From: Glutamicibacter sp. JL.03c
Lineage (GTDB): Bacteria; Actinomycetota; Actinomycetes; Actinomycetales; Micrococcaceae
Direction: 5' to 3'
Assembly: GCF_025854375.1 (NCBI RefSeq)
Contig: NZ_CP107575.1
Coordinates: 682,001-746,000, forward strand
DNA length: 64,000 bases
Shown here: one piece after another, positions 5,343 through 64,000 of the stretch
Numbering within the stretch: position 1 is the first letter of the stretch
Layout of the letters: each line of letters starts with the position of its first letter
The notes under the pieces: generated by a model
Databases searched by the model: none
What the model was told of the DNA's origin: nothing
What the model saw: the letters and a program-made list of their open reading frames with translations, nothing else
Position numbers and translations under genes: made by a program

Positions 5343-6563
5343 ATGGCACTTCCTGAGTCAAAGACTGAAATGAGCCCCAAGGCGCGGCGCACCGCCCTGC
5401 TGGGAGCCATGTTCTTGATGGCCACCAGCGCCATCGGTCCCGGATTCATCACCCAGACCACCGAATTTACGGTACAAATCGGCGCGGCCTTCGCTTTCGC
5501 CATCGTTGTCTCGATCCTCGTCGACATCGCGGTGCAGCTGAACGTCTGGCGCGTCATCGGTGTCACCGGGATGCGCGCCCAGGAACTTGGCAACAAGGTG
5601 CTGCCGGGAGTGGGCTGGTTCCTGGCGGTCCTCGTCTTCATCGGCGGCATGGTCTTCAATATCGGCAATATCGCCGGCACCGGACTTGGCGTCAATGCGA
5701 TGCTCGGTGTGGATGCCAAAATCGGTGGTGCGATTTCTGCCGTCATCGCCATCCTGATCTTCCTGTCCAAGAAAGCCGGCATAGCCCTGGACCGTATCGT
5801 GGTGCTTCTCGGAGCCATCATGATCCTGTTGATGCTCTACGTAGCCATCGTTGCCGCACCACCTGTGGGCGAGGCGCTGAAGAACGTCGTACTGCCAGAG
5901 CAGATCGACTTCCTGATCATCACCACCCTGATCGGCGGCACCGTCGGAGGCTACATCACCTACGCCGGCGCGCACCGCATGATCGACTCCGGCACCAGCG
6001 GCATCGATCACGTCAAGTCGATTTCCAACATCTCGATCTTGGCCATCATCGTCACTGGCGTCATGCGCGTGCTCTTGTTCCTGGCGATTCTCGGCGTGGT
6101 CGCCGGTGGCGTGGCGCTGGTCAGTGACAACAAGGCTGCAGAGGCCTTCGGCCACGCAGCCGGGCCAATTGGCATCCGTGCCTTCGGCATCATTCTCTGG
6201 GCCGCGGCGCTGACCAGCGTCATCGGTGCCGCCTACACCTCGGTTTCGTTTGTCACCAAGCGGACCACCTCGGAACGCACCCGGAACCTGATCACCGTCG
6301 CCTTCATCGCAGTCTGCGGTGTCATCTACCTGCTCCTGGGCAAGGCACCAGCGACCTTGCTGATCTTCGCTGGCGCATTCAACGGGCTGATCCTGCCTGT
6401 CGGTTTCGCCGTATTGCTGTGGGTTGCCTGGCGCCGCCGGGACCTCATGGGTGGCTACAAGTACCCCAAGTTCCTGCTCCTCGTGGGCGTGCTGGCATGG
6501 CTTTTGAGCGTCTTCCTCGGATGGAATTCGCTGGCTGGCCTGGCTGCGCTCTGGCAGGGCTAA
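5343..6563 (+). CDS. NRAMP-related transporter of the 5-oxoproline cluster (YcsG-like)
   Basis: A 406-residue membrane protein with about 11 hydrophobic segments. It belongs to the divergent NRAMP branch (B. subtilis YcsG type) found next to pxp genes. The first motif reads SAIGPGFITQ where true metal-carrying NRAMPs have DPGN, and the MPH motif is absent, so divalent-metal transport is doubtful. Uptake of 5-oxoproline or a related compound is an inference from context. The stop is 12 bp from the hydro-lyase gene, so the two form an operon. Two TTGTTCAACAA palindromes precede it. Confidence 0.8.
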   Translation: MALPESKTEMSPKARRTALLGAMFLMATSAIGPGFITQTTEFTVQIGAAFAFAIVVSILVDIAVQLNVWRVIGVTGMRAQELGNKVLPGVGWFLAVLVFIGGMVFNIGNIAGTGLGVNAMLGVDAKIGGAISAVIAILIFLSKKAGIALDRIVVLLGAIMILLMLYVAIVAAPPVGEALKNVVLPEQIDFLIITTLIGGTVGGYITYAGAHRMIDSGTSGIDHVKSISNISILAIIVTGVMRVLLFLAILGVVAGGVALVSDNKAAEAFGHAAGPIGIRAFGIILWAAALTSVIGAAYTSVSFVTKRTTSERTRNLITVAFIAVCGVIYLLLGKAPATLLIFAGAFNGLILPVGFAVLLWVAWRRRDLMGGYKYPKFLLLVGVLAWLLSVFLGWNSLAGLAALWQG

Positions 6564-6575
6564 GGCGGCAGGAGA

Positions 6576-7391
6576 ATGGAGAAGATCAAGGACCTGGACC
6601 TGGACTTGGGCCAGCGGGCCAAGTTATCACCGAGCCAAGCTCGCGAGTTCTTCCGCCAGGGGCAGGTGCTGCCCACCGCGGGAATCAGCGCAGGGTACGC
6701 GCAAGCGAACCTGATGATCGTGCCGCGAGAGCTGGCCTTTGACGTTTTGCTCTTCGCTCAGCGCAATCCCAAGTCCTGTCCGGTCCTCGGCGTGCTCGAA
6801 GCCGGCGAAGTGTCCGGTGAACTGCTGGCTGGCGGCGACATCAGGACCGATGTCCCGAAGTATGTGGTGTATGAAAATGGCATCAAGGTCGCCGAGCCGA
6901 CCGACCTGTCCGAGTACTGGCGCGATGATCTGGTCACTTTCATCATCGGCTGTTCGTTCACCTTCGAATCAGCCCTGATGGATAACGGAATATCGGTTGC
7001 CCACATTGACCAGGGCGTCAATGTTCCGATGTACAAGACCACCAAGCGCAGCACCACGGCCGGCGCCATCTCCGGGCCCATGGTGGTTTCGATGCGTCCG
7101 ATACCGGCGTCGCAGGTGGCTGATGCAGTCCGGATTACCTCGAGGTATCCGGCGGTGCATGGTGCACCGGTGCATATCGGCAATCCGGAAGAGCTGGGAA
7201 TCACTGACTTGTCGAAGCCGGACTTTGGCGACGCCGTCGAGATTCCAGAAGGCAGCGTTCCGGTGTTCTGGGCCTGTGGCGTCACGCCGCAGGCAGCCGT
7301 GGTGGAGTCCAAGCCGACGCTTGCCATCGGGCATGCTCCGGGCCACATGCTGATCACCGACATCAAGGATTCGCAGTACCAGGTGCCATAG
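6576..7391 (+). CDS. DUF1445 putative hydro-lyase (YcsI-like)
   Basis: A 271-residue soluble protein of the DUF1445 family, called putative hydro-lyase and related to one domain of the mammalian D-glutamate cyclase that interconverts D-glutamate and 5-oxo-D-proline. The family motif [11 protein letters not shown] is present near residue 230, as are [16 protein letters not shown] and [15 protein letters not shown]. The ATG at 6576 has AGGAG just ahead and lies 12 bp after the transporter. Context with pxp-type genes points to 5-oxoproline or D-glutamate metabolism; the exact reaction in bacteria is not shown by sequence. Confidence 0.85.
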
Positions 7392-7393
7392 CT

Positions 7394-7446
7394 AAAAGTG
7401 CTGCGGTGTTCCTCCCGGCAGGGAGGAAGACCGCAGCACTTTTTGC
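7394..7446. terminator. Bidirectional terminator between hydro-lyase and deaminase
   Basis: A perfect 14-bp stem (7394-7407 with 7430-7443, AAAAGTGCTGCGGT) with a smaller inner CCTCCC/GGGAGG stem is flanked by A and T tracts. It can end transcripts from both convergent genes. Confidence 0.9.
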
Positions 7447-7460
7447 ACCGCAAGAATTCT

Positions 7461-44009: not shown

Positions 44010-44358
44010 AGTGCTGAGGGTAGCCAAATCAATATCGCGGCGGGAATGGTGTCATGCCGCAGTTGGTGCTGGCAATCAGCTTGTCAGCACCTACATTTTC
44101 GAGTGCGTTTCGCAGGGTCTGGGGTGCTTCCTCCGCACTCTCCACAATGTCATTGGCCACGTCGATCGCGCCGAGAATCACTTGCTTGCCGCGGACCAAT
44201 GAAATGACCTCAAGCGGAACATTCGAGTGATGGGACTCCAGCGAAACGGTATCGATGGCGGAAGCTTGCAATAGAGGGAAGGACTTCTCGTACTGGCGCC
44301 ACTGTGCGCCCAAGGTGACTTTCCAATCGTTGTTCGCCTTGAAGGCGTAGCCAAAGGA
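44010..44358 (-). pseudogene. Relic of a second mesD (methionine synthase) gene
   Basis: The minus strand encodes FGYAFKANNDWKVTLGAQWRQY and on through TVSLESHHSNVPLEV to IASTNCGMTPFP, closely like residues about 215-319 of the intact mesD at 48691-49731. N- and C-terminal parts are missing and the frame breaks near 44029. The difference from the intact copy is large enough that this is not a recent duplication. Confidence 0.85.
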
Positions 44359-45160: not shown

Positions 45161-46601
45161 ATGCCTAACGCACTCTCTCCAGGCCTGCGCGCGATGATCA
45201 TCAGTTTCGATCCGACACCACCCGATGCCCTGACGGTCAGCGAATTCTGCAAGACCCAGAAAATCTCGCGAAGTATCTTCTACCGCATCCGCGAACGAGC
45301 CAGCCAAGAATCAGCCGGCGCGCTCCACCCACGTTCCACGGCCCCAAAGTTGCCTTCCAGACGCTACGGTCCCGACGTGATCAACGAATTGGTCAGGATC
45401 CGCAAAGAACTCAAGAAGGACGGCTAGGACAACGGACCGAAGACCATCCATTACGAAGCGACCATCCTGGACGAATTCCCTGGCGGCCAGATCCCGTCCG
45501 TCGCGACCATTGCCAGGCTGCTTTGTCGGGCATGTTGAACGAAGTCCCCGCAAACGCCCAAAATCCTCCTACGTCCCCTTCGTGCGCTCTGCTGCCATGG
45601 CACTGTGGCAACTCGACGCGTTCGAGTACAGAACCCTCTCCGACCAGGTGGTGACCGTCTACCAGCTCATCGACGATGCGACCCGATTCGATGTGGGCTC
45701 CAACGCGTATTCACGCCACGAGAACAGCGGCGATGCGCAACAGGTGCTCGCACGTGCCATCAGTGAATACGGGCCGCCCAAGGAAGTTCTCAGCGATAAC
45801 TCCAAGGCGTTCAACCAGCTTCGCGGCGGAACCATCGGCATCGTGGAAGCCTATCTGGCGTCACAGGGAAGCATGCCGATCACGGGGTTGCCGGGCAGGC
45901 CGACAACTCAGGGCAAGAATGAACGTTCGCACCAGACCCTACAGCAGTTCCTCAAAGCAAACAGGCCGCAAAATCTTGCCGACGTGCAGAAGCTGCTTCG
46001 ACGCTACCGCGAGCACTACAACCAGCGCCGCCCCCATCAATCCCTGAACCAGGCAACCCCGCAGAAGGCCTGGGAGCTGTTGGAGCACACACCGGCTACC
46101 GAGCCGATACCGATGGTGGTGCTGGAAGCCAAGGCTGCTGAATACCTGATGAAGCGCCGACTCGGCGGCGCGGCGGCGAACCGCGCTGACCTAGTCGTTT
46201 CGAAAACCGGCGACATCCTGAAGAAGCTCACGAAGCAGCACGAGCCTGACATGGACCGGGAAAGCCATCAACTACTGGTGCGGGTCAATAAGGACAACTG
46301 CCAAGCCTATTATCGGGGCAAGCAGATCTCACTGCCGCAGACCTATGCCGACCGGCAGTTCCTGAGGACCATCACCGACGACGAATTCATCTTGTCGGAC
46401 CCCGATCCTGCGGAAGTGGTGTTGAGCTTCCCGTTGCCGATGGTGGCATTGCGCGTTCATCAGCGGTTTGTGTCCTCGTACTCGATCAGGGGAATTCACT
46501 TGGCGAACCCGACAAAACAGTGGATCCGGAAGGCCGCCGAATACCAAGCCCAGTACGAGGCGCGGGAAGAAGGCATGCCAGAGGTATTTGATTATCGGTA
46601 G
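45161..46601 (+). pseudogene. IS481-family transposase, broken
   Basis: The N-terminal helix-turn-helix part (LTVSEFCKTQKISRSIFYRI) runs from 45161 to an in-frame TAG at 45425-45427. Beyond it the same frame continues (DNGPKTIHYEATILDEFPGGQIPSVATIARLL) until a frameshift near 45525 moves to the frame that stays open to 46601. The DDE core is intact there: LWQLDAFEY (Asp), LSDNSKAF (Asp) and QGKNERSHQTL (Glu). A C-terminal domain of about 170 residues follows. As it stands the protein cannot be made whole. Confidence 0.85.
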
Positions 46602-48155: not shown

Positions 48156-48704
48156 TTAGTGTCCCAAATGCGAGCCAGCATTCAGGTGATGCCACGAACG
48201 GTTATGGTAAACCAACGCGTCACCAAGCTCGCCTGGTTGGGCGTCTCGTGCAATGTGTGACTGCAGACCGCGGGCCACAATGACCGTTGAAGTCCCTGCC
48301 TGGATGCGCTCTACAACCTCACACCGTACCCAAGCACGGACGTCATCAAAGACCGTTTCACCGGTGCTCAAATGAGTCCACGTCTGGTCCTGAGCAAATC
48401 GATCCACACCGCTGGTAGCGCCCAACTTAGCCAGCTCAATGTCATGCACATCCAAGGAATGAACGACTACAGTTTCGGCGCGAGAGAGTACGTCAGAGGC
48501 TGAAGAGAGTGCCGAAATCGAGAAAACCAGCAACGGTGGATCAACGCTGATCGAAGCCACCGATGTTGCAGTCAGGACTACCGGCCCGTCGCCTGCATCA
48601 GCAGTAATGACGCTAACTCCACCGGGGTGCCCACGAAAGACTGCTTTGAAGTCTTCTGCGGGCAGGGAATCGGTGGCTTCAATCGTGACTTTAGACGCTG
48701 GCAC
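48156..48704 (-). CDS. Flavin reductase-domain protein of the mes operon
   Basis: A 182-residue FMN-binding split-barrel protein of the flavin reductase family (FRGHPGGVSVITADAGDGPVVLTATSVASISVDPPLLVFSIS). I place the start at the GTG at 48704, seven bases after AGGAG; TTG codons at 48707 and 48710 are closer to it. It overlaps the 3' end of mesD by 14 bp. It probably supplies reduced flavin, fitting the oxygen requirement reported for MesD/MesX; this link is inference. Confidence 0.88.
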   Translation of the reverse strand: MPASKVTIEATDSLPAEDFKAVFRGHPGGVSVITADAGDGPVVLTATSVASISVDPPLLVFSISALSSASDVLSRAETVVVHSLDVHDIELAKLGATSGVDRFAQDQTWTHLSTGETVFDDVRAWVRCEVVERIQAGTSTVIVARGLQSHIARDAQPGELGDALVYHNRSWHHLNAGSHLGH

Positions 48705-49731
48705 CAACAAGCTCCTCGCGCAGTATGGACGCTCCGGCGCTCAGTGCGCTGAGTTTGGCCAGTGCTACCTTGCGTGGGAATGGTGCCATGCCACAGTTGG
48801 TGCTGGCAATCAGCTTGTCTGCATCCACAAATTCCAGCGCCTTACGCAGGGTTGATGCGACCTCTTCTGGGGTCTCCACGGTTTCGCTGGCCACGTCGAT
48901 AGCACCGAGCATGACCTTCTTGCCGCGGACCATCTCAACAACTTCGATGGGCACGTTCGAGTGGTGGGATTCTAACGAGACGGTGTCGATGGTGGACGCC
49001 TGCAACAGTGGGAAGGACTTCTCATAGTGACGCCACTGCGCACCCAAGGTAGCCTTCCAATCATTGTTGGCCTTGATGCCGTAACCGAAGCAAATGTGGG
49101 CAACAGTTTCTGCCTTGAGTCCTTCGCACGCACGCTCCAGAGCAGCGATGCCCCAATCGGCAACCTCGTCAAAGAAGACGTTGAAGGCTGGCTCATCAAA
49201 CTGGATGACATCCACGCCGGCTGCTTCGAGTTCCCTGGCTTCCTGGTTCAGGATGGTGGCAAACTCCCATGCGAGCTTTTCGCGACTCTGGTAGTGAGCA
49301 TCATACAAAGTATCAACCATGGTCATCGGGCCAGGCAGAGTCCACTTGATGGGCTTGTCGGTAAATGTGCGAAGGGCCTTGGCATCCTCAACAAATACTG
49401 GTTTTTGGCGCTCTACAGCACCCACCACTGTTGGCACGCTGGCATCGTAGCGATTTCGAATGCGTATGGTTTCACGCTTTTCGAAATCAACACCGCTCAG
49501 GTGCTCAATGAACGTGGTGACGAAGTGCTGACGAGTCTGTTCACCGTCGCTGATGATGTCAATGCCACGCTGGGTCTGTTCCAGTACCGCCGCACGCATC
49601 GCGTCGTGTTTTCCTTCAGCCAGTTCGGAGCCCGAGAGTTTCCAATCGGACCAGAGGACCTCGGGCTGGGCCAGCCATGAAGGCTTGGGCAGGCTGCCGA
49701 CAATTGACGTGGGGATAAGCGGGGAAGTCAT
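48691..49731 (-). CDS. mesD: Core methionine synthase MesD
   Basis: A 346-residue protein equal to the C-terminal catalytic half of cobalamin-independent methionine synthase, without the N-terminal folate half. Zinc ligands match MetE: His212-x-Cys214 (AHICFGYG), Glu254 (SLESHHSN) and Cys313 (STNCGMAPF). Directly upstream is a DUF1852 gene (mesX), the pairing that defines MesD/MesX folate-independent methionine synthases, which need oxygen and whose methyl donor is, to my knowledge, not settled. A partial second copy lies at 44010-44358. Confidence 0.9.
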   Translation of the reverse strand: MTSPLIPTSIVGSLPKPSWLAQPEVLWSDWKLSGSELAEGKHDAMRAAVLEQTQRGIDIISDGEQTRQHFVTTFIEHLSGVDFEKRETIRIRNRYDASVPTVVGAVERQKPVFVEDAKALRTFTDKPIKWTLPGPMTMVDTLYDAHYQSREKLAWEFATILNQEARELEAAGVDVIQFDEPAFNVFFDEVADWGIAALERACEGLKAETVAHICFGYGIKANNDWKATLGAQWRHYEKSFPLLQASTIDTVSLESHHSNVPIEVVEMVRGKKVMLGAIDVASETVETPEEVASTLRKALEFVDADKLIASTNCGMAPFPRKVALAKLSALSAGASILREELVGASV

Positions 49732-60043: not shown

Positions 60044-60910
60044 GTGAGCGCACGCATTCTCGACGGAAAGGCCACCGCGGCCACCATCAAGCAGGAACTT
60101 GCTGAACGCGTGGCCAAGCTGAAGGCTGAAGGTCACAGCACCGGGTTGGGCACCATTCTGGTCGGCACCGATCCAGGCTCCGCATGGTACGTCGGCGGCA
60201 AGCACAAGGACTGCGCCGAGGTGGGCATCGAATCCATCCGCGTGGACCTGCCCGAGGAAACCACCCAGGACGAGCTGCTCGCCAAGGTCCGCGAGCTCAA
60301 CGAAAACCCGGCCTGCACCGGCTACATCGTGCAGCTGCCCCTGCCTAAGCACATCGATCAGGACGTCATCCTGGAGGCGATGGATCCTGCCAAGGACGCC
60401 GACGGCCTGCACCCGATGAACCTTGGCCGCCTAGTGGCCAACGTGAACCGCCCGATGGCTTCCCCGCTGCCATGCACCCCGCTGGGTTGCGTGGACCTGC
60501 TGGCCCGCCACGATATCGACCTGAATGGCAAGCACGTGCTGGTGCTCGGCCGCGGCGTGACCATCGGCCGCCCGGTCGGCCTGCTGCTCACCCGCCGCAG
60601 CGTGAACGCCACGGTCACCCTGGCGCACACCGGCACCACCAATCTTCCAGAACTGCTCGCCCAGGCCGATGTCATCATCGCCGCCGCCGGCGTGCCGCAC
60701 ATTGTGAAGGCCGATGCGATCAAGCCCGGCGCGATCGTGCTCGACGTGGGAGTTTCCCGCGTGGATGGCAAGGTCACCGGCGATGTTGACCCGGCCGTGG
60801 CCGAGGTCGCTAGCTGGATCAGCCCGAACCCGGGCGGCGTGGGCCCGATGACCCGCGCCATGCTGCTGAACAACGTGGTCGAAGCCGCGGAGCGCAACGC
60901 CGCGAAGTAG
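60044..60910 (+). CDS. folD: Methylene-THF dehydrogenase / methenyl-THF cyclohydrolase
   Basis: A 288-residue bifunctional enzyme linking methylene-THF to 10-formyl-THF. The GTG start at 60044 follows GGAAGGA. Motifs: [14 protein letters not shown] (the usual catalytic Lys region), [42 protein letters not shown] (NADP site) and [18 protein letters not shown]. Its last 26 bases, stop and next 6 bases recur at 62919-62950, as if a mobile segment had inserted at the gene end while keeping it intact. Confidence 0.97.
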
Positions 60911-60916
60911 ACGCGA
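60885..60916 (+). repeat. Direct repeat at the folD 3' end (left)
   Basis: A 32-bp stretch covering the last codons and stop of folD. It recurs at 62919-62950 with one mismatch (CCGCGGAGCG versus CCGCAGAGCG), then 27 identical bases. It is a probable attachment-site copy. Confidence 0.85.
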
Positions 60917-60932
60917 TTGAGCTCAAACACCC

Positions 60933-60965
60933 ACGGCCTGCCATGATGGCAGGCCGTTGTTCTTA
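60933..60965 (+). terminator. Terminator after folD inside the insert
   Basis: A 12-bp perfect stem ACGGCCTGCCAT/ATGGCAGGCCGT (60933-60944 with 60946-60957) followed by TGTTCTT. It gives folD a terminator within the inserted segment. Confidence 0.75.
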
Positions 60966-61092
60966 TACGCCCAGCAGCGGCATTTACTAGGAGACATGAT
61001 TCCTCTGGACGCGAATTGGTTTTAAGGCCGTTCCGAAAGCATTTAGATTTGCGTTTCCCTAATCAGTGTTAGTGGTTTGTCAGGTTTAATAG

Positions 61093-62820
61093 GTGACGTC
61101 CTTTACTGTAAGTGTGTCGTTGGCTTTTCGCTTGGCTAATAAACGAATGATGGTTGGGTATCGTAATATCGGTCTCATGACTCAAATTGGCGAGGTGCCC
61201 ACACCTCTTGCTCAGTGGAATATTCCAGTGTTTACGGGTGGTTTCTGCAGCGTGCAGGTGAGTGCGGGAGAGGTGTTGACGATCCTCGGGGCGAATGGGT
61301 CGGGTAAATCGGCTCTGGCTTCGTGGATGCCGAGAAATTCGCAGGCAACGGCTATCCGGAGAGTGTTAGCGCAACGAAAACTGTGGTTTACTCAGTCGGG
61401 ACCCTCCATTACTCCGGCAGACCGGCAAACGCGATTTGCCCAAATCACGCATTGGGATCAGGAATTTAGTTCGCGCTATCTTGACCATAGTGATTCACAG
61501 CGTTCGGGGATTGCCTTGTTCGATATGCTAGCCAAGATCAATCAGGAGAACAGGGAACGCGTAGATCTGTATGAGGCGGGGTCGAGCACTGAAGATGTTA
61601 CCCGGAGGATGGGTCCACGCGTTCTCGACACGTTCAATACAGTGCTTCAAACTTCGGGCCTTGAAATTGAAATAGGCGTGGATTCTACGGAGAATTTTTT
61701 TGCGAAGCATCTCAATTCTGACGTGACATATCCGATTCATTTGATGTCCGATGGTGAGAAGAGCGCGCTATTGCTCGCCGCTGAAATTATTACTGCCCCG
61801 TCCGGGGTGACGTTTATTATCGATGAGCCGGAGAGACATCTACATCGAGCAATTTCCGATGAACTCATCAAGACCATTATTGCTACACGTAATGATTGTG
61901 CTTTTGTCGTGTTCACTCATGACCTGGACCTCGCCGCGAGCCTTTCTGAACAAAGAGGGAAGGTGCTAACCGTGTTTGGTGTGCGGTGGGAAGGGGAGCA
62001 AGCCATGCAGTGGGATCTGCATGAGATTGCACAGGACGACTCCTTGCCTGAAATCGCCCGACAGGCAATTCTTGGTGGGCGGAAGGAGATTCTCTTCATT
62101 GAAGGAGAAACGACGAGCCATGATCTGAGCCTTTACAAGGTGCTCTTCCCAGATTGGCTACTGGTGCCTAGCGGAGGATGCGATACGCTCATCCGGTCAG
62201 TGTCTGGCCTGCGGAATAGTGAGAGTTTCCATTGGGTCAGAGCACGCGGTTTGGTTGATGGGGACTGGCGGTCTGAGCAGGAAATTGAATCCTTATTTAG
62301 TCTTGGTATTCATGTTCTGCCAGTGAGCGAAATTGAGAACCTCTACTACACTTCGGAAGTGCTACAGGCAGTAGCAGAGCAACAAGCTTCGACGTTTGGC
62401 GACGATCCTCAGGTCAAAGTTGAGGAGGCCAAGAGTGCGGCCATGAAGGCGCTAGGAAAGAATGAGACGTTAGAAAGACTGACCGGACACCTTTCGAAAT
62501 CTGTGGTCGCGAGGAAACTAGTCGAGTACATGCCAGATGTGGTTGATGAGAACGCAATCGAGATCAACTTTGACTCGCCATTTCCACAAATTCTCAGGCA
62601 GATGAAGGATCATCTTACTGCTGGTGCGTATGACGAGCTGATCAAAGCGCTACCGATTCGTAACACCAGCATGAGAATTGAAATTGCTAGGCACCTCGGT
62701 TTTCAGAGTATCCAGGACTATGAAACTGCGGCCCTTCATCGCATCCGTAATTCTCCGCCGCTGCAAATCGACTTGCATATCCCCATCGAGAAACAGTCAG
62801 GTCGAGAGCCCTCTGGATAA
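61093..62820 (+). CDS. ATPase fused to TOPRIM/DUF4435 domain (merged PARIS-like)
   Basis: A 575-residue protein (numbered from GTG 61093; ATG 61177, possibly leaderless, is an alternative). An ABC/AAA15-type ATPase comes first: Walker A GANGSGKS (66-73), signature SDGEKS (219-224), Walker B FIIDEPE (241-247), His276 switch. A TOPRIM-like DUF4435 domain follows: FIEGE (Glu337, Glu339), GLVDGDW (Asp389, Asp391) and SEIENLY (413-418). These are the domains of AriA and AriB of the PARIS anti-phage system, here in one chain; OLD-family nucleases are the other comparison. It stands alone in a 2-kb insert at folD. Confidence 0.75.
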   Translation: MTSFTVSVSLAFRLANKRMMVGYRNIGLMTQIGEVPTPLAQWNIPVFTGGFCSVQVSAGEVLTILGANGSGKSALASWMPRNSQATAIRRVLAQRKLWFTQSGPSITPADRQTRFAQITHWDQEFSSRYLDHSDSQRSGIALFDMLAKINQENRERVDLYEAGSSTEDVTRRMGPRVLDTFNTVLQTSGLEIEIGVDSTENFFAKHLNSDVTYPIHLMSDGEKSALLLAAEIITAPSGVTFIIDEPERHLHRAISDELIKTIIATRNDCAFVVFTHDLDLAASLSEQRGKVLTVFGVRWEGEQAMQWDLHEIAQDDSLPEIARQAILGGRKEILFIEGETTSHDLSLYKVLFPDWLLVPSGGCDTLIRSVSGLRNSESFHWVRARGLVDGDWRSEQEIESLFSLGIHVLPVSEIENLYYTSEVLQAVAEQQASTFGDDPQVKVEEAKSAAMKALGKNETLERLTGHLSKSVVARKLVEYMPDVVDENAIEINFDSPFPQILRQMKDHLTAGAYDELIKALPIRNTSMRIEIARHLGFQSIQDYETAALHRIRNSPPLQIDLHIPIEKQSGREPSG

Positions 62821-62918
62821 ACCATACAGAGAACTCTAACGGGGTACGGTCCTAAGGAATTCTTGGTGCGGTGCGGTGGGATGAGAACCCGCATACCCGA
62901 TTGTGGTGTCCATTCAAT

Positions 62919-62950
62919 CCGCAGAGCGCAACGCCGCGAAGTAGACGCGA
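62919..62950 (+). repeat. Direct repeat of the folD 3' end (right)
   Basis: The second copy of 60885-60916. It is not preceded by other folD sequence, so it marks the far end of the insert. Confidence 0.85.
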
Positions 62951-62985
62951 AAAAACCGGCAGCCCAAGCGGGCTACCGGCTTTTT
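62951..62985. terminator. Bidirectional terminator, original folD terminator
   Basis: The stem CCGGCAGCCC/GGGCTACCGG (62956-62965 with 62970-62979, one mismatched pair) has an A-tract before and TTTTT after it. It serves the leftward transporter gene and would have followed folD directly before the insertion. Confidence 0.85.
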
Positions 62986-62999
62986 GATCCCTGCAGGTC

Positions 63000-64000
63000 C
63001 TATAGCGCGTCCTGCGGAACGGGCTGCGTCACGGCCCGCTTGTCGAAGACCAGCGCGCCAACTTCCTGCTCGGCCTGGTTGCCGATGCCCAAATCGATGC
63101 CGCTGCGATCACGCACCAGGCTGACCGCCGCCAGCGACACCGCGGTGAGCGCGAACAGGTACCAGCCGACCCCCGTGGTCCCGCCGGTGGCCTGCACCAG
63201 CGCGGTGGCGATCATCGGGGCGAACGCTCCACCCAGGATCGCGCCGAAGGCATAGGAGATGGAAACCCCGGAGAAGCGCACCGAAGCGGGGAAAAGCTCG
63301 GAGTACAGCGCCGCCTGCGGACCGTAGGAGAAGCCCAAGCCGATGGCGAATAGCGCGAACGCCACGTAGAGCAGCGGCAGGCTGGCGGTGTTGACCAGCC
63401 AGAACAGCGGGAAGATGCACAGCAGCTGGCTGATGAAGCCGACCTGGTAGGTGCGCTTGCGCCCGATCCTATCCGCCACGACCCCGGAGAGCAGGGTGAA
63501 GGCGAACCACATGACCGCGCCGAAGGACACCGCCAGCAGCACCTGCGTGCGGGTGAAGCCCACTGGCCCATTGGGATCCGTCATATATGCCTGCAGGAAA
63601 CCACCGGTGGTCATGTAGCCGGCGGCATTGTTGCCGGCGAAGATCAGCGCGGCAATCAGCACCAGCAGCCAGTGCTTCTTGAACAGCACCACGATCGGCA
63701 CGCGGGTCTGCGCCTTCTTCTGCGCGATCTCCTCGAAGACCGGGGATTCGTCCACCGAGCGGCGGATGAAGTAGCCCACCACGATCAGCACGAAGCTGAG
63801 CAGGAACGGCACACGCCAGCCCCAGGCCACGAACTGCTCGCCGGGGGAGATCACGCCGGTCATCAGCGCCATCATTCCCGAGGCCAGCAGCATGCCCAGC
63901 GGGACGCCGAGCTGCGGGTAGGCGCCGGCCCGCGCCCGGCGGCCCTTCGGGGCGTGCTCCACGGCCATCAGCACCGCGCCGCCCCATTCGCCGCCGGCGG
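63000..64000 (-). CDS. MHS-family transporter, cut by the right edge
   Basis: At least 333 residues of a major facilitator protein; the N terminus is beyond the window. The frame GEWGGAVLMAVEHAPKGRRARAG, then GWRVPFLLSFVLIVVGYFIRRSVDESPVFEE is characteristic of metabolite:H+ symporters (ShiA/ProP/KgtP type). Later MFS motifs include VADRIGRKRTYQVG and PQAALYSELFPASVRFSGVSISYAFGAILGG. About eight membrane segments are visible. The substrate (for example an aromatic acid, dicarboxylate or osmolyte) is unknown. Confidence 0.9.
   Translation of the reverse strand, partial: AGGEWGGAVLMAVEHAPKGRRARAGAYPQLGVPLGMLLASGMMALMTGVISPGEQFVAWGWRVPFLLSFVLIVVGYFIRRSVDESPVFEEIAQKKAQTRVPIVVLFKKHWLLVLIAALIFAGNNAAGYMTTGGFLQAYMTDPNGPVGFTRTQVLLAVSFGAVMWFAFTLLSGVVADRIGRKRTYQVGFISQLLCIFPLFWLVNTASLPLLYVAFALFAIGLGFSYGPQAALYSELFPASVRFSGVSISYAFGAILGGAFAPMIATALVQATGGTTGVGWYLFALTAVSLAAVSLVRDRSGIDLGIGNQAEQEVGALVFDKRAVTQPVPQDAL

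Follow-up and report, generated by a model that had tools for sequence, protein, structure and literature searches.

At the right-hand side of the window, by which we mean the whole 64,000-nucleotide stretch of DNA analysed here, an intact folD gene lies on the forward strand (60044..60910, GTG start); it was recognised from its translation, and orthologues are present in all 18 genomes of the genus that were compared. The 3' end of folD occurs twice. A 32-nt direct repeat, consisting of the final folD codons, the stop codon and six bases beyond, lies across the folD stop codon (left, attL-like copy, 60885..60916, +) and again, with one mismatch, 2,034 bp further on, start to start (right, attR-like copy, 62919..62950, +). 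The repeat finder extended the pair to 60882-60916 and 62916-62950, in which 33 of 35 nt are identical. The 27-nt exact core tops all exact repeats of the window, and the longest exact repeat in the Markov nulls (n = 30) never exceeded 17 nt, which rules out a chance origin of the folD-end repeat. At up to three mismatches, the core was found nowhere else in the same genome.

The runner-up among the exact repeats, 26 nt long, lies elsewhere in the window, within a 316-bp stretch that is 78% identical between 44042-44356 and 48776-49090. The former resembles a fragment of a MetE-like gene (48691-49731), no open reading frame of at least 150 aa covers it, and a transposase-like frame is found near it at 45510. 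The labels MetE-like and transposase-like, as well as MFS-type and SGNH-hydrolase-like below, were given from sequence.

The segment between the two repeats contains a single gene, ariAB (61177..62820, +). Between the left repeat and ariAB lie a terminator-like hairpin of 11 pairs (60933..60957, +) and, directly behind it, 82 bp left over from a group II intron's 5' end (60960..61041, +). The hairpin was flagged by a terminator scan, which found three such sites in the region versus 2.3 from shuffles, so that the flag by itself is weak; it bears some resemblance to the folD flanks native to two relatives, G009 and G017. The right repeat is followed by a second hairpin (62951..62985, +), whose imperfect stem was seen by eye and was not flagged by the terminator scan, and then by an MFS-type transporter gene on the opposite strand (63000..64000, -).

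The GC content of 500-base windows wholly inside the insert is 0.484-0.528, compared to 0.596-0.684 in windows clear of the insert at 56-64 kb. The sole Rfam match on the insert lies far under its gathering score. No inverted pair joining the insert ends was listed (at least 14 nt, 9-nt seed), arm-type repeats near the ends were not above chance (one direct pair versus 0.65 expected), and no integrase remnant was recognisable when the stop-free stretches at the insert ends were read by eye.

A first-pass annotation of this DNA had already described the one-mismatch repeat and its spacing, a preserved folD, and a lower-GC insert with an ATPase-TOPRIM/DUF4435 gene as its only gene. The repeat scan confirmed the coordinates and the identity of the repeat, the folD reading frame is intact to its stop at 60910, and the GC windows, the list of open reading frames and the PADLOC and Pfam matches given below all agree with this description of the insert.

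Empty folD sites in related genomes

The genus was represented by 18 genomes, one per species and including that of the window. The 27-nt core, at up to three mismatches, was found in six of them: in two copies in the window genome and in G012, which carries the same insert at folD, and in one copy in G006, G007, G008 and G009. In G006, G007 and G008, the single repeat is joined directly, as read by eye, to a hairpin homologous to that at 62951, indicating that the 62951 hairpin is folD's own terminator, displaced behind the insert. The hairpin at 60933-60957 has no counterpart in these three empty sites. The two further first-pass statements, that the insert brings its own terminator and that the apparent original folD terminator was left behind the second repeat, are thus borne out. 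G009 also has one repeat, but different DNA behind it. In the remaining 12 genomes, the folD end is too divergent for the core pattern.

Both repeats were never seen together in a core-containing genome that lacks the gene: the four genomes without ariAB have one copy each, and the two with ariAB have two. The right repeat starts abruptly within the folD end, and its match stops exactly where the empty sites enter the original terminator, as att recombination predicts. This arrangement supports a precise insertion at the 3' end of folD. A second independent insertion or a related element at the folD site was not found in what was searched.

In G009 (contig C3, L049 1393-3104), an SGNH-hydrolase-like gene, a 3' fragment of an MFS gene on the opposite strand and a folD fragment lie behind folD. 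The last of these is a second, divergent folD 3' fragment of 62 codons, about 1.5 kb downstream; the neighbourhood of folD is thus rearranged in G009.

ariAB as a putative fused PARIS-type defence gene

The ariAB product, of 547 aa, was identified by PADLOC, Pfam and motifs as a fusion of a PARIS-type AriA (ABC/AAA ATPase) to AriB (DUF4435/TOPRIM); its start at 61177 was picked from homologues within an open frame that begins at 61093. The PADLOC AriAB match has an E-value of 5.9e-66. PARIS has been defined as an AAA_15/AAA_21 ATPase together with DUF4435, with a score threshold of 27 for AAA_21 and DUF4435 (PMC9122126), and the ariAB product scores 45.4 bits for AAA_21 and 41.7 bits for DUF4435, both above the Pfam cut-off and within that definition. 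Single-gene PARIS fusions are on record in the literature (PMC9122126; PMC12409363).

In an alignment of eight AriAB proteins (the islet protein and those of G012, the second copy in the same genome, G260, G089, a Kocuria plasmid, an E. coli plasmid and G628), the motifs that we take to be the nucleotide-binding, signature and TOPRIM (Glu, DxD) motifs are kept throughout. A single-sequence structure model of AriAB was uninformative (mean pLDDT 37.6), and a sequence search of solved structures matched general ABC ATPases and UvrA, with no PARIS chain among the matches.

The islet protein and its G012 counterpart share 98% amino acid identity, and the G012 gene ends 11 codons sooner. The dN between the two is 0.011 compared to a dS of 0.10 (dN/dS near 0.11), indicating that ariAB is under purifying selection. 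By analogy with known PARIS systems, these results suggest that ariAB is a fused anti-phage defence gene that would confer immunity.

Of the 18 genomes of the genus, two have ariAB at the folD site, namely G012 and the window genome, and homologues at E <= 1e-30 occur in 4 of 395 family genomes; vertical inheritance of an ancestral ariAB was dismissed on these counts, and the gene is not syntenic throughout the genus. A class-wide search at E <= 1e-60 found it in 2 of 394 genomes (the window genome and G628), and a protein search of genome contigs returned MYb214 only. Homologues are present in 53 plasmid records, all below 60% identity, the two nearest by identity being from Rothia and Kocuria. 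Two phage records matched, both of one Oenococcus phage, at 30% identity, and an AriAB protein search of viral contigs gave none.

A second fused AriAB gene, 43% identical, is encoded in the same genome (G000:C1:3306876-3308450, - strand; L066, about 5877-7451). No direct repeats of at least 18 nt (12-nt seed) were found in 6-7 kb around the homologues of G260 and G089 or in 6 kb around this second copy, where a laxer scan with a shorter seed gave three weak pairs (75-89% identical). The idea that AriAB habitually forms a minimal repeat-flanked islet was rejected on these grounds.

A truncated group II intron inside the insert

The remnant at 60960..61041 is 73% identical over its 82 bp to a full intron in the same genome and is similarly close to introns of relatives. 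Intron matches were found in 7 of 395 family genomes, the window genome included, and are 58-69 bp long apart from the islet itself. Of six introns compared, four are 92-99% identical over about 1.96 kb, one is 74-75% identical over about that length, and the last matches over only about 365 bp. In the one full intron that was submitted to Rfam, that of G001, group II domains were recognised. At the loci that were read by eye, the introns likewise begin just behind hairpins. IIC introns are described as inserting at intrinsic terminators (PMC4424553), and from their place behind a terminator the present introns may be assigned to class C. At another locus of the window genome (L085, G000:C1:420400-425000), two 100% identical intron copies of 1,961 bp stand in direct tandem behind a hairpin.

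Aborted retrotransposition is expected to lose the 5' end of an intron. Since the stump keeps its 5' end, whereas the rest of about 1.96 kb is gone, DNA was probably deleted inside the insert after the arrival of the intron. The insert would therefore once have been larger, and an integrase could have left with the deletion. The right end of the insert has no significant match to the introns, and a group II intron with ariAB as its cargo was rejected for this reason.

Search for an integrase, a helper or a parent element

No tyrosine recombinase was found within 40 kb of folD, in contig coordinates, in any of the 18 genomes, three of which (G009, G011 and G017) have a contig end 13.5-28 kb from folD on one side. 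The nearest match lies about 45-52 kb from folD, in G002 and G009. The window genome has three tyrosine-recombinase matches, of which the nearest, a 471-aa frame, is about 185 kb off. A large serine recombinase model, with matches in 11 of the 18 genomes, had none in that of the window and, in the others, none close to folD. The first-pass annotation had noted that no integrase accompanies the insert; indeed, the insert holds a single gene and no integrase-family match is near folD on its contig. The resolvase-domain matches closest to folD are about 19 kb away, on the upstream side; five of the 18 genomes (G002, G007, G015, G008 and G001) have such matches, at distances of about 19-32 kb upstream.

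Among the family genomes, the left part of the insert, its own hairpin aside, matches only its G012 twin and introns. The right part, together with the repeat, has matches at E <= 0.1 in 50 of 295 family genomes; they comprise both islets, the folD ends of congeners and numerous short matches, 17-54 nt in length. Neither insert end matched plasmid or phage records at E values up to 1. The core and the folD end gave no matches in viral contigs, and a further viral-contig scan gave one 18-nt match in apparently unrelated viral coding DNA. Overall, no parental element or integrase using the folD site was found in the family genomes and the plasmid, phage and viral records searched. In the literature, folD was not met as an integration target; because the text search could not tell folD from fold, no claim is made that the site is unreported.

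A tract shared with a second species

The mean identity of the window genome is 87.9% to the empty-site genome G006 and 87.0% to G012, the tract described here included, with about 44-45 kb aligned in each case. In 1-kb windows where each of the two comparisons covered at least 300 bp, the identity to G012 exceeds that to G006 in five of five at 63-68 kb, compared to 5 of 38 elsewhere; the limits of the tract were set after the profile had been seen, and the Fisher value of 2.6e-4 is descriptive only. The tract runs from about the 3' end of folD to near 68.2 kb, past the end of the window; at that point about 2 kb are absent from G012. Besides the islet, the tract contains about 5 kb of further genes, and the identity profiles place the MFS-type gene within it. 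At 81-84 kb, the identity to G012 is also 93-95%, yet that to G006 is still higher there. The stretches of G012 and G006 that were compared extend no further than about 20 kb upstream of folD, and the window at 45-47 kb has no alignment to them.

The dS to G012 is 0.10 for ariAB, 0.20-0.22 for the MFS-type gene and 0.33-0.36 for folD. Of 20 other open reading frames outside the tract, 10 have values of 0.36-0.54 and the others range over 0.045-1.75; several frames in this list are probably antisense, including two other frames inside the tract (0.10 and 0.11). These results indicate that the islet most likely entered one of the two species as part of a homologous recombination tract. On this view, the two islet copies represent one insertion event, not two, and the presence of the islet in the second species, explained by a tract that includes neighbouring genes, does not call for excision and re-integration. 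Because divergence is lower in the islet than in the adjoining gene of the tract, there may have been more than one exchange.

Discussion

The reading that we favour, and consider probable, is that the islet is a relic of a larger integrative element, comparable to a cis-mobilizable element (CIME), which kept one selected defence gene and was later spread by homologous recombination. In a Glutamicibacter-like lineage, the 3' end of folD would once have received a larger element by site-specific recombination; since this element would have carried a copy of the folD end, folD would have been made whole again, with its original terminator displaced beyond the insert. Deletion, one instance of which ended inside a group II intron lodged behind the element's own terminator, would then have removed the recombination genes. 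What remained would be two att-like repeats and one gene under selection, the fused PARIS, in which, by analogy, the ATPase half may sense a phage-encoded trigger and the TOPRIM half may cut host tRNAs, stopping the infection. The relic would later have moved between species within a homologous tract of about 7 kb.

The main rival, which we hold rather unlikely, is that no integrase was ever involved: homologous recombination, or illegitimate recombination assisted by homology, would have brought in the end of a foreign folD allele along with a terminator and ariAB, leaving two folD ends. A recombination tract lies at this very locus, and the second folD 3' fragment about 1.5 kb downstream in G009 shows that folD ends do become duplicated. 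In addition, when the left flank of G012 was the query, G009 and G017 scored 52 and 49.5 with their native folD flanks, compared to 19.5-41.5 for 16 others (the islet twin, at 125.5, set aside). However, this lead was gone when the window's own left flank was used (G017 41.5, G009 41.0, the G012 right flank 40.5, G007 40.0), and hairpins inflate such scores, since shuffles do not keep palindromes; it is on account of this inflation that the allelic explanation is given no better standing. The borders of the right repeat, moreover, are those predicted for att recombination.

The first-pass annotation had suggested a minimal satellite moved by the recombinase of another element, and this suggestion gained no positive support. 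Two near-identical repeats, an intact gene, empty sites, the lack of an integrase of its own and the three tyrosine-recombinase matches in the genome, including the 471-aa frame about 185 kb away, are all what a still-mobile unit of two att sites and one defence gene, served in trans by another element's integrase, would present. Nevertheless, a single insertion event is documented, sharing between species was seen only inside a tract that includes neighbouring genes, the core lies nowhere else in the genome at up to three mismatches, the intron inside is truncated, and arm-type repeats are not above chance. The searches turned up neither a second insertion nor a related element or helper, the truncated intron suggests internal loss of DNA, and the homologous tract explains the second species. 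Such a satellite is therefore improbable, and we hold it very doubtful that the islet is still active as a single-gene defence unit with two att sites, cut out and put into folD by an integrase whose gene lies elsewhere in the cell; if true, the unit would be among the smallest mobile phage-defence elements. An origin as a transposon or retroelement, such as a group II intron bearing ariAB, could appeal to the intron 5' end directly preceding ariAB, but is hardly credible, given that the right end has no significant intron match, that no listed inverted pair joins the insert ends, and that a 32-bp duplication at the end of folD is expected of neither kind of element.

If the relic reading is correct, the islet provides a worked example of how a defence gene may outlast the mobile element that brought it, in which the empty site, the scar, the deletion marked by an intron and the recombination tract are all legible across a few species. 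It also makes the 3' end of folD a candidate insertion site in Glutamicibacter and illustrates that near-perfect att-like repeats around an islet need not mean present mobility. Current ideas on defence islands are unchanged by it.

Among known systems, the anatomy of the islet agrees with that of a CIME, a decayed ICE or IME that retains att sites and cargo, has lost its recombination genes and may be mobilised through accretion with an integrating element. Classical CIMEs of 1.2-13 kb are described in composite islands at gene 3' ends in Streptococcus salivarius (PMC7563491). Like these, the folD islet, at 2.0 kb, is flanked by two att-like repeats, whose att role is putative, at the 3' end of a gene; it holds cargo only, without recombination, conjugation or mobilisation genes, the nearest tyrosine recombinase being about 185 kb away, and its empty site is present elsewhere (G006, G007 and G008). 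Unlike them, it is not in tandem with an ICE or IME, and since the searches revealed no parent element, its membership of the class is incomplete. Its gene corresponds to the single-gene fusion form of PARIS (AriA/AriB), with an AAA_21-type ATPase fused to DUF4435/TOPRIM and intact motifs, but this putative system stands alone in a folD islet and not in a P4-like satellite hotspot. P4-like satellites carry the same defence family, PARIS (PMC9122126); in contrast to these phage satellites, the islet has no integrase, replication, packaging or interference genes and contains only the defence cargo. It also differs from a DNA transposon in that no terminal inverted pair was listed and its single gene is not a transposase.
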